Shown here piece by piece: positions 46,997-50,124 of a stretch of 64,000 bases of DNA. Source of the DNA: Psychrobacter sp. NG254 (lineage in GTDB: Bacteria; Pseudomonadota; Gammaproteobacteria; Pseudomonadales; Moraxellaceae); contig NZ_JADHDA010000001.1 of the NCBI RefSeq assembly GCF_015277735.1, forward strand, positions 124,001-188,000, given 5' to 3'. The position numbers were made by a program, and so were the translations under genes. The notes beneath the pieces are model-generated. The model saw only the letters and a program-made list of their open reading frames with translations, was not told the origin of the DNA and searched no databases. How positions within the stretch are numbered: the first letter of the stretch is position 1; each line of letters starts with the position of its first letter.

Positions 46997-48127
46997 ATGG
47001 ATCTCTCACTCTTCTATTACGGTATACAGTGGTTGGCAGGATTCATCGCATTTGTCACGATTTGGGGCTGGATACCACTTGATAACTGGTGGGTACGTGG
47101 CGTTGAGTTTCCACGTATTCAGATCATGGTGCTTGGCATCGTTGCGTGGATTGGTATGCTAGGGTTTTGGTCAGAGTGGCAGACCGGGCAGTGGGCGCTG
47201 TTTATTGTGCTTAGTATTACTTTGGCGTTTCAATTGAGAATGATACTGCCTTATACCAAATTATGGAAAAAAGAAGTTCAAAAAGCAAAGGACAAATCGG
47301 ACAAGCAAGCACATCATATAAAAATCATGGTATCAAACGTCCTTACCCCTAATGATGACACACAAAAACTGGTGGCGTTGGTTGAGCAAAAACAGCCTGA
47401 TATTTTGATTACTTTAGAAACTGATAAAAAGTGGGAGAAAGCTTTACATCAAATCGAGTCTGACTATCCTTATACGGTAAAAGTGCCGCTTGATAATCTG
47501 TATGGCATGCATCTCTATTCTAAGCTTGAGCTGATAGAGCCTGACATTAAGTATTTGATCATAGATGACATACCCTCCATTCATACGCAAATGCGTCTGC
47601 AAAGTGGTCGAGTGATTTGGTTGTATTGCTTGCATCCTATGCCGCCAAGTCCAACGGAAGCAGATAAATCAACCACTCGCGATGCTGAGCTACTGATGGT
47701 TGGTAAGCACATAAAAGAAAACGATCAAACGGCGATATTGGCAGGTGACTTAAATGATGTGGCATGGTCAAAAACCACTCGCCGTTTTCAGCGCATTTCT
47801 GGATTGCTAGATCCTCGTATTGGTCGACACTTTATCAATACCTTTCATGTCAAATACCCATTTCTACGCTGGGCATTGGATCATATTTTCCATAGTGCTT
47901 GTTTTACGGTAGTAGATATCAAGCGTATGCCATCGATAGGTTCCGATCATTTTCCTGTGATGACAACTTTGCAGTATGAGCCAGAAGAGGCCAGCCAACA
48001 AGAGGGTAATGCCCCTACTGCAGAAGCCAATGATATAAAAGAGACAGATCACAAAATACATGAGGGTAAAAAAGAAGGTAAAAAGGTTTCAGAAGAGCAT
48101 CGGCAAGAGCAACGCCGTTTTGTTTAA
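46997..48127 (+). CDS. Membrane-anchored endonuclease/exonuclease/phosphatase (EEP) family protein
   Basis: A 376-residue protein whose first ~85 residues contain three hydrophobic segments (including VLGIVAWIGMLGFW and ALFIVLSITLAF). An EEP domain follows: MVSNVLTPNDD at its start, DILITLETDKKWE (metal-binding Glu), AILAGDLNDVAW (GD.N motif) and SIGSDHFPVM (SDH motif). The layout is like YafD-type proteins. The substrate (nucleic acid, phospholipid or other phosphodiester) is unknown. The last 40 residues are highly charged and probably disordered. Confidence 0.83.
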   Translation: MDLSLFYYGIQWLAGFIAFVTIWGWIPLDNWWVRGVEFPRIQIMVLGIVAWIGMLGFWSEWQTGQWALFIVLSITLAFQLRMILPYTKLWKKEVQKAKDKSDKQAHHIKIMVSNVLTPNDDTQKLVALVEQKQPDILITLETDKKWEKALHQIESDYPYTVKVPLDNLYGMHLYSKLELIEPDIKYLIIDDIPSIHTQMRLQSGRVIWLYCLHPMPPSPTEADKSTTRDAELLMVGKHIKENDQTAILAGDLNDVAWSKTTRRFQRISGLLDPRIGRHFINTFHVKYPFLRWALDHIFHSACFTVVDIKRMPSIGSDHFPVMTTLQYEPEEASQQEGNAPTAEANDIKETDHKIHEGKKEGKKVSEEHRQEQRRFV

Positions 48128-48176
48128 GATAGGGTATGGCTCGTGCATTGGAAAAGCGTAAAACTTGCCACTGTCA

Positions 48177-48194
48177 CGTAAGCATATGCTTACG
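48177..48194 (+). promoter_or_regulatory. GacA-type upstream activating sequence
   Basis: CGTAAGCATATGCTTACG is a perfect 18-bp palindrome and matches the GacA box TGTAAG-N6-CTTACA except for the outermost base on each side. Its centre lies about 65 bp upstream of the predicted start of the small RNA, which is the spacing known for rsmX/Y/Z promoters in Pseudomonas. Confidence 0.7.
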
Positions 48195-48238
48195 CTAAAT
48201 AAGGTTTTTAGCTTCTATTCCTACCAAATTGATTGACC

Positions 48239-48244
48239 TATAAT
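48239..48244 (+). promoter_or_regulatory. -10 box of the Rsm-like small RNA
   Basis: A perfect TATAAT. No good -35 hexamer lies 16-18 bp upstream (TATTCC at best), which would fit a promoter that depends on the upstream activator. Transcription would start near 48251. Confidence 0.6.
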
Positions 48245-48250
48245 AGCAAC

Positions 48251-48430
48251 CATCAACACAAGGATACGTAAGGATACAGTGTTGAGATGGTACTAATAAA
48301 GCGCAGGTCAGCCCACTGTCTTATATTACTGTTCGCGACTTAGGATGAGTCGACAAGGAAGAAAGATAATAATAATAACGTGAAGTGTAAAAGCTCCGAA
48401 CCAATCGCCCTAGGTTCGGAGCTTTTCTTT
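48251..48430 (+). ncRNA. Rsm/Csr-type small RNA that titrates CsrA (predicted)
   Basis: This predicted RNA of about 180 nt runs from the start implied by TATAAT to the terminator at 48389-48426. It carries AGGA motifs at 48261, 48271, 48342 and 48356. The contexts ACAAGGAUAC, GUAAGGAUAC and ACAAGGAA are close to the CsrA/RsmA consensus (ACARGGAU). The third sits in the 7-nt loop of the hairpin CGACU-UAGGAUG-AGUCG (48336-48352), the classic CsrA-binding presentation. ACAGTG (48276) can pair with CACTGT (48314). There is no convincing open reading frame. With the GacA box upstream, it fits a Gac/Rsm regulatory RNA that sequesters CsrA. It lies between the EEP gene and surA. Confidence 0.7.
48389..48430 (+). 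terminator. Intrinsic terminator of the Rsm-like RNA
   Basis: AAAAGCTCCGAACC pairs perfectly with GGTTCGGAGCTTTT (14 bp, 10-nt loop), followed by CTTT. It is too far (262 bp) from the EEP stop to belong simply to that gene. Confidence 0.88.
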
Positions 48431-48507
48431 GTGCGTAAGTTTTAACTTATAAATAGCTGGTTTAGGCATGCTAGTGTTATATATATTTACCGCGTTATAT
48501 ACTTCGC

Positions 48508-48543
48508 AAAAAAGGGTACATGCATTTGCATATACCCTTTTAT
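48508..48543 (-). terminator. Terminator of surA
   Basis: On the minus strand AAAAGGGTA pairs with TACCCTTTT, with an inner ATGCAAATGCAT pairing in the loop, followed by TT. It lies about 22 bp after the surA stop. Confidence 0.75.
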
Positions 48544-48565
48544 TATTTCAGCGACTCATTGGTTC

Positions 48566-49960
48566 TTAGCCAACTACTTGTACGTATGCACCGGCACGTA
48601 ACTCTTGTAACCAGTCTTCTTTGGCTTGCGGCGCTAGACGTTGATACAACGCTTGACGCGCCATATTGCGACGGTACTGCTCGCTAACATCTTGTTGACG
48701 TGTCTCGTCTACTTTCAAAATATGCCAGCCAAACTGGGTTTTGAAGGGTGCAGAATAATCGCCAACCGTTGTGTTTTTCATCACGGTTTCAAATGGGCCG
48801 ACCATATCTTCTTGGCTTACCCAATCAAGATCCCCACCGCGACCCGCTGACCCTGGATCATCTGAATAGGTCGATGCTAGAGCAGAAAACTCAGCACCAT
48901 TACGCAGTTGCTCATATAAATCATTGATTTTTTGCTCAGCCAGTGCATCCGTCTGTAGTTCATCTACTTTGACCAAGATATGACGAGTATGCCACTGCGG
49001 TATCAGCATTTTATCGCTGGCTTTTTTGTCTGCAAGCTTGATGATGTCGATACCTTCTGGCGTCAATATAGGTTCGCTGACCGTGCCCACATCCAGTTTG
49101 GTGATTTGAGTTGATAGCTCTGTTGGTAGAGAAGCGGCTTTGTGAAAGCCCATATCGCCGCCTTGTAGCGGGATAGGATAGCTGCCTTGGCTCGCTGTAA
49201 CGGCTGCGGCAACATCGACATTGGGTTCAAGCAAACGAGTACGCAATGCTTGTGCGACTTTTAGTGCTTCTTCACGCTGAGCTTCTGATAGGCGGCTATA
49301 GTCGTCTATATAAGGAACGCGCACATGGACTGTTTGATATTCGCTTTGGTTTAAGCGTTTTGCTTCAGGCGAGGCCAAAAAGGCATCAATGTCTTGCTCA
49401 CTGATACGTACTCGACGTGTGATTTGACGCTGTTGTAATTCCTGAATAGCAGTATCTTCAATTAGCTTAGCACGTAGACCAGCATAACTGCCAGGCTGAG
49501 TGGCATCTAGACGTTGCTGCAATGCTGAGATACTACTGAGGCCTTCAGCTTTAGCAATCTGACCAAGTCGCTGATTGATGTCAGCATCGTCAGGTGATAA
49601 GCCGTTACGTTTGACCAGCGACAGCTGTAGCTCACGCAAAATAAGTGCATTTAGCACCTCAGTTTGCAGTTGTGCTGAGTTTGCAATCGGCTCTCCTGCG
49701 GCTTGGGCGCGAGCTTGGGTTTGTGCCACTGCATCGATTAATTCGCTCTTTAAAATAGCGTTGTCGTTGACCAAAGCAATGATACCATCGGTACTGTTGG
49801 CAGGTGTCAAACGGTTGACAGAGCTTTGTTCAGTAGTGGCCGATGCTTTAGCGACGGCAGGCTTTACCGTGGCCGCGTGAGCGCTTAGTGTCAGTGCAAG
49901 ACTGGCACTCATAGATAGCAATACTGCTTGGCTGATCTGACCTAAAGAAAAAAATCTCAT
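48566..49960 (-). CDS. surA: Periplasmic chaperone / peptidyl-prolyl isomerase SurA
   Basis: A 464-residue periplasmic chaperone carrying outer membrane proteins to BamA. It has a signal peptide (cleavage after SAHA), an N-terminal chaperone domain (DGIIALVNDNAILKSEL, then LILRELQLSLVKRNG), a weakly conserved first parvulin domain (YQTVHVRVPYIDDYS), and a second well-conserved one (WHTRHILVKVD to FGWHILKVDETR). ATG 49960 is chosen because GAGGAA lies 5-6 bases upstream. It follows lptD in the same direction, the usual lptD-surA order. Confidence 0.94.
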   Translation of the reverse strand: MRFFSLGQISQAVLLSMSASLALTLSAHAATVKPAVAKASATTEQSSVNRLTPANSTDGIIALVNDNAILKSELIDAVAQTQARAQAAGEPIANSAQLQTEVLNALILRELQLSLVKRNGLSPDDADINQRLGQIAKAEGLSSISALQQRLDATQPGSYAGLRAKLIEDTAIQELQQRQITRRVRISEQDIDAFLASPEAKRLNQSEYQTVHVRVPYIDDYSRLSEAQREEALKVAQALRTRLLEPNVDVAAAVTASQGSYPIPLQGGDMGFHKAASLPTELSTQITKLDVGTVSEPILTPEGIDIIKLADKKASDKMLIPQWHTRHILVKVDELQTDALAEQKINDLYEQLRNGAEFSALASTYSDDPGSAGRGGDLDWVSQEDMVGPFETVMKNTTVGDYSAPFKTQFGWHILKVDETRQQDVSEQYRRNMARQALYQRLAPQAKEDWLQELRAGAYVQVVG

Positions 49961-50124
49961 GAAGTTCCTCATCAATATCATTGTATCGGATAGTAGTCAA
50001 TCAACTCGATCCAATACGCTTAAATAGTAAAATATTTGGCAGCGTTGCCCATCATACATAATAGGGATAGAAATAATGTATTACAAATACCGTTATAAGT
50101 AATGCTGTCTTAGTCTTTTCAAGC

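Follow-up and report, generated by a model that had tools for sequence, protein, structure and literature searches.

The consensus site of GacA is TGTAAGN6CTTACA. Regulatory RNAs of the Rsm/Csr kind are known in Pseudomonas (excerpts of PMC7911923 and PMC2375449), where RsmX, RsmY and RsmZ have a palindromic GacA upstream activating sequence, GGA motifs placed in loops and several genes per genome, and where the palindromic upstream site is required for activation by GacA (PMC7911923, in part). In enterobacteria, CsrB, CsrC and RsmB sequester CsrA by means of GGA hairpins, as the RNA described here presumably does. For Acinetobacter, a member of the same family as Psychrobacter, partner RNAs of GacS/GacA-CsrA have been predicted (excerpts of PMC7366521 and PMC5568370). 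For Psychrobacter itself, the open-access literature searched holds no report of a Gac/Csr circuit or of such an RNA; the match obtained for Psychrobacter together with CsrA/GacA was a Pseudoalteromonas paper in which Psychrobacter occurs in a reference only, and that obtained with Gac and Rsm was a review on quorum sensing.

At 48177–48430 of a 64,000-nucleotide stretch of the 3.33-Mb genome of Psychrobacter sp. NG254 (the window, bases 124001–188000 of contig C1) lies what is very probably the gene of an Rsm/Csr-type regulatory RNA of roughly 180 nt, one of three such loci in the genome, whose mechanism we infer. It is located between an EEP-family gene (46997–48127, + strand) and surA (48566–49981, − strand), both named as in a preliminary description of this DNA, and its parts are collected in Table 1. 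That description had proposed an Rsm/CsrB-type RNA from a palindrome, a TATAAT box, four AGGA motifs, one of them in hairpin P3, and a 14-bp terminator, each of which is where it was said to be (the AGGA motifs start at 48261, 48271, 48342 and 48356); the conservation of these elements, csrA and a gacA candidate support the interpretation. It had likewise seen no good −35 element, and a scan for sigma-70 −35/−10 pairs on the + strand of 48000–48700 returned none, the promoter being visible by its −10 match only.

Table 1. Elements of the predicted small RNA gene and its upstream region (positions in the window).
Feature	Position	Strand	Remarks
GacA-box-like palindrome CGTAAGCATATGCTTACG	48177–48194		18 bp, perfect; putative upstream activating sequence
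Linker AAATAAGGTTTTTAGCTTCTAT joining palindrome to −10	48197–48218	+	conserved in the genus (alignment read by eye); a role is presumed
−10 box TATAAT	48239–48244	+	53.5 bp from palindrome centre
Predicted sRNA, ~180 nt	48251–48430	+	start placed from the −10 box; conserved block, covariation, model R1
5' helix P1, UCAACAC/GUGUUGA	48253–48285	+	two CsrA-type sites within
Bulged AAGGA in P1	48260–48264	+	CsrA-type site
Inner hairpin GUA-AGGA-UAC in P1	48268–48277	+	CsrA-type site
Central arm P2, AUGGUA/UACUGU	48287–48332	+	apical C-rich loop GUCAGCCCA at 48307–48315
Hairpin P3, AGGAU in loop	48336–48352	+	CsrA-type site
Unpaired AAGGAA	48355–48360	+	fourth CsrA-type site
Triplet array AAU AAU AAU AAC	48368–48379	+	motif of Hfq distal-face type
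Intrinsic terminator, 14-bp stem	48389–48426	+	loop AATCGCCCTA (48403–48412) with GCCC

In the proposed mechanism, phosphorylated GacA would bind the palindrome, which lies about 65 bp ahead of the start, and would activate a promoter that has no −35 element. The transcript, which would end at the intrinsic terminator, would offer four GGA sites, of which two are looped in hairpins, one is bulged and one unpaired, to CsrA dimers, and this titration would relieve the repression of the mRNAs that CsrA targets. The two terminator arms (48389–48402 and 48413–48426) pair perfectly and the right arm ends in TTTT, followed by CTTT, which leaves a short and interrupted U-tail. This + strand terminator is absent from the output of the terminator scan, whose loop limit is 8 against a loop of 10 here; its stem was recovered by a repeat search. 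A 15-nt inverted repeat (AAAAGGGTACATGCA / TGCATATACCCTTTT) at 48510–48541, between the RNA and surA, may terminate surA transcription.

The traits of the Rsm/Csr class are found together here: a palindromic box, multiple GGA motifs that are looped or unpaired, a −10 box and a terminator without a conserved reading frame, and csrA with gacA and gacS candidates in the genome. Unlike RsmX, RsmY and RsmZ, which have 6–10 GGA sites, the RNA of the window has four; it also differs from them in a constant C-rich terminator loop, in a 5' helix that carries a bulged GGA and a looped one, and in matching no Rfam model. The small number of GGA sites and the absence of a match to the CsrB model likewise set it apart from CsrB, CsrC and RsmB. 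None of the 4227 families of Rfam release 15 matches within 47000–50000 at E ≤5, and at the Rfam gathering score the window contains one tRNA only. A covariance search with the Rsm and CsrB families had been proposed in the preliminary description, which foresaw that such RNAs are poorly detectable by similarity; it found no family at the locus. Genome-wide, the RsmY model gives three weak matches elsewhere (10.1–14.9 bits, cut-off 57), and matches below the cut-off, with none above it, also occur in 13 of 14 control genomes. The RNA is probably a further example of the known Rsm/Csr kind, perhaps with a variant function, and the covariance model R1 built here describes it where Rfam release 15 has no matching family.

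Taken singly, the elements are only modestly unlikely. With up to two mismatches, TGTAAGN6CTTACA occurs twice in the window, against 3.06 expected, and GTAAGN6CTTAC with up to one mismatch is not enriched across the genome (58 sites, and 74 with the reversed pattern as control). Four AGGA fall within the 135 nt ahead of the terminator, where 0.96 would be expected (P 0.0056 with dinucleotide shuffling, 0.0092 with base shuffling), as do three ANGGA (P 0.058). What lies far beyond chance is the conservation of the locus, together with the fact that the genome holds three copies of the full 16-mer, all of them followed by GGA-rich sequence.

A DNA search with 48128–48460 matches 96 of the 105 genomes of the genus, own included, and its alignments mostly start near the palindrome and stop near the terminator. 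R1, which was built on 46 sequences drawn from 46 of the 105 genomes later searched, matches in 104 of the 105, again with the own genome included. By these comparisons, 48177–48430 is a small RNA gene conserved, and presumably transcribed, in Psychrobacter. The palindrome, the GGA loops and the terminator, whose conservation among relatives the preliminary description had made a check of its proposal, are kept in alignments of 66 and 46 rows. The 66 type-A rows come from 70 extracted sequences, with L045, L046, L047 and L053 excluded on account of a query match limited to the palindrome region or a short stretch. A palindrome-like GTA[AC]GN6[AC][GT]TAC is present in all 66, and its centre is 67 bp from the CAACAC of P1 in 62 rows, 66 bp in one and 68 bp in three. 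Omitting L044 as well leaves 56 distinct RNAs, 46 of which form alignment A1; five longer RNAs of divergent type and five others were left out of it. Only G092 among the 105 genus genomes has no R1 match. Its EEP match (L290, C9) stops after residue 71, near where the retrieved DNA ends, and since the EEP gene is interrupted there, the RNA locus may be lost or unassembled. By eye, the DNA past the break could be part of a mobile element.

Outside the genus, R1 was searched with stricter filters that lose weak matches, and it matches in 7 of 223 genomes of the family (five in g7, two in g15), which may set the RNA apart from those predicted for Acinetobacter. The g7 copies keep the palindrome, a −10-like box, the 5' end AUCAACACAAGGA and the GCCC terminator loop, and by eye the end of the EEP gene also lies upstream of the RNA in the g7 loci L155–L157. 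The two g15 matches (E 9e-4 and 3e-3) were not counted as members, as the palindrome pattern is absent in L160 and L161. Three window-type R1 matches occur in G063 (L162–L164), and the third copy, L164, which has no palindrome by the pattern used, was not counted either.

It is extremely improbable that an inert repeat of intergenic DNA, a DNA uptake repeat or a terminator repeat carries the motifs by accident: although other kinds of terminator hairpin may be repetitive, the terminator core here has a single exact copy in the genome and one further copy with two mismatches, and on this count the repeat was rejected. The position is kept as well, with an EEP-family gene upstream and surA downstream, as in the window, in 46 of the 62 named records that carry the 5' pattern of the RNA. 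Three non-Psychrobacter records with this pattern (L202, L205 and L231) have neither neighbour gene and were not counted as members; by our own estimate, the number of non-Psychrobacter records is about that expected by chance in 257 Gb.

The RNA has a covarying structure. Drawn from the sequence and scored on A1, it has standard pairs in 92.9% of 1764 cells, with changes on both sides in 24 of 39 pairs (shuffled mean 11.8) and in 98 cells (shuffled mean 25.2). None of 500 shuffles is as high on any of the five covariation measures and every slid control is lower; related sequences can beat all shuffles on some measures without any structure, and the pair and type counts weigh most. RNAalifold, unaided, recovers P1, the outer central arm, P3 and the terminator, with double changes in 17 of 29 pairs. 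P1 is paired in 99.7% of cells (double changes in 2 of 7 pairs), the inner GUA-AGGA-UAC helix in 95.6% (2 of 3) and P3 in 98.3% (3 of 5). All six outer pairs of P2 show double changes; its inner stem is paired in only 80–84% of cells, and the arm is shorter in some species. The terminator stem is less complete in the 46 relatives: its outermost pair fails to form in 42 of them, the second in 10 and the third in 14. Each of the 46 rows has 3 to 6 GGA before the terminator, and G108 G109 A110 (first-row numbering) of the AAGGAA site are invariant. The minimum-free-energy fold of the window's own sequence lacks the conserved 5' hairpin, which counts against the reading as an Rsm/Csr-type RNA. A kissing interaction of the P3 loop (UAGG) with the terminator loop (CCUA) was rejected because terminator loops with CCCAA (e.g., L038, L043) coexist with an unchanged UAGGAU.

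The same alignment bears on whether the region could be a small mRNA or the leader of a short peptide. Some sequences do have a start codon that opens at least 10 codons, but no such start is common to more than 12 of the 46 aligned sequences, and the changes that have occurred are compensatory for RNA pairs; a peptide, which the lack of conserved start positions led us to reject, is very improbable.

The protein partners expected of an Rsm/Csr-type RNA are encoded as well. As the preliminary description anticipated, both csrA and a gacA gene could be traced, the former in 105 of 105 genomes of the genus, with one match each (own copy at C1:257357), the latter as a candidate in 104 of 105. In the own genome, the candidate GacA (213 aa, C13:188288–188917, L077) has UvrY/SirA/GacA as its best NCBIfam model, at 241.6 bits, below the curated cut-off of 280. 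The best GacA-like match reaches at least 184 bits in 104 of the 105 genomes (partial in G051), and the curated cut-off in none. G086, which is 92% complete, shows no strong gacA match, yet keeps the RNA. The GacS candidate is an open frame of 1189 aa at C7:604597 that matches BarA in three pieces, the best at 382 bits, below the cut-off of 890, and is named here a BarA/GacS-like hybrid kinase. With these genes and three RNA loci, Psychrobacter probably has a complete Gac/Csr circuit.

Three observations go beyond the preliminary description: the three loci of this genome, the constant C-rich terminator loop and the array of AAN triplets. The genome has three exact copies of the 16-mer GTAAGCATATGCTTAC, one in the window, one at C7:291476 and one at C7:495442, with 53.5, 55.5 and 55.5 bp, respectively, from palindrome centre to −10. 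A fourth site (L079) fits GTAAGN6CTTAC but not the full palindrome, and by eye has no GGA array. Between palindrome and −10, the linker is by eye partly common to the sister loci (GTTTACGCGACTTA, GTTAACACCTCTTA) and is perhaps a second promoter element. The second locus, type B (C7:291476, L080:1501–1850), consists of GGA-rich sequence and a terminator; with its G013 relative as query, 103 of 105 genomes match at E ≤0.01, several by short promoter or 5' stretches only. Alignment A2, with 31 of the 45 type-B sequences, is folded by RNAalifold into GGA hairpins with double changes in 31 of 68 pairs, and of the 8 GGA in its consensus, six sit in hairpin loops. Type B resembles CsrB, with a sub-threshold match in the G013 relative only: among six loci of sister or distant type scanned with Rfam, that relative (L047) alone gives a Csr match (CsrB, 21.4 bits, E 0.011, gathering score 71), and L080 and L081 of the own genome match no Csr or Rsm family. 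The third locus, type C (C7:495442, L081:1501–1774), is likewise GGA-rich sequence with a terminator, and its neighbours are presumably a prc-like protease gene and an FKBP-type (SlyD-like) gene. At E ≤0.001, a type-C match is present in 99 of 105 genomes; among the weaker matches, many cover no more than the promoter region, and some fall on the second locus. Since the 45 type-B copies have 6 to 11 GGA each and the 17 distinct type-C copies 6 or 7, against four in the RNA of the window, the latter is the member of the three with the fewest GGA.

These few GGA sites, and the constant C-rich loop, would suit a GacA-controlled RNA that acts by base pairing only and titrates no CsrA; RgsA of Pseudomonas likewise does not relieve RsmA repression. 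The GGA sites are, however, conserved in covarying hairpin loops, and RgsA contains only one GGA, with an upstream motif that bears no relation to the palindrome (PMC2375449, in part). An RNA of this kind is improbable, and one that titrates CsrA is preferred.

A CsrA-titrating RNA may still do more. Of 78 type-A loci examined (L160 and L161 are outside the set), 76 have a recognised terminator, and each of these 76 has GCCC in its loop; the same holds for all 46 rows of A1 with their 29 distinct terminators, though the closing stems beneath the loop vary (GAACC/GGTTC, AAGTCT/AGACTT, AACGCT/AGCGTT and others). The longest AAN run averages 4.37 in the 46 rows against 2.19 in base shuffles, a value reached in 0 of 300, and is longer than in the sister RNAs, where 34 of 45 type-B copies have a longest run of 3 and the 17 type-C copies all have one of 1 or 2. 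In Pseudomonas aeruginosa, AA(R)N motifs of the Hfq distal face have been described and RsmY is stabilised by Hfq (excerpts of PMC8395346). The AAN array likens the RNA to CrcZ and other Hfq-binding RNAs with A-rich triplets; CrcZ differs in having several A-rich motifs, a length of 407 nt and control by CbrB/RpoN (PMC8395346, in part). The constant GCCC loop and the array of AAN triplets make it plausible that the RNA also works with Hfq or by base pairing, and they suggest a second role beyond that of a plain sponge.

Such a bifunctional RNA, whose GGA sites would bind CsrA and whose C-rich loops, with GCCC in the terminator loop and often again in the central arm, would pair with targets while the RNA is bound by Hfq, extends the Rsm/Csr reading; we consider it a tentative and rather doubtful extension. 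The sister loops, taken as a control, vary rather little themselves (CTTGT is in 25 of 25 type-C copies, and type-B loops mostly start with ACA and end with TTGC), although on nearly constant stems. Since the rows are related, the 76 loci stand for fewer than 76 independent cases; the central arm has GCCC in 51 of 65 rows only, and by eye the AAN array is missing in the distant copies L158, L159, L162 and L163. A literature search for C-rich terminator loops found no paper on them. Speculatively, the RNA might even be a two-way switch, a single GacA-activated transcript whose 5' half would titrate CsrA and which, held by Hfq on its AAN array, would pair with G-rich ribosome-binding sites through its constant GCCC terminator loop, an idea that we rate as possible but not as the expected outcome; if it is true, one signal steers both post-transcriptional networks. 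The constant loop raises the testable question of whether base pairing can be a further activity of an Rsm RNA.

Some genomes carry further copies. One locus (L170, G045:C1:420000–423300) has three palindromes with GGA-rich sequence after each, and another (L171, G078:C8:78500–81500) has two palindromes with GGA-rich sequence, of the second type. These multi-copy genomes look like cases of amplification of Rsm genes and would be natural material for studying the dosage of CsrA sponges.
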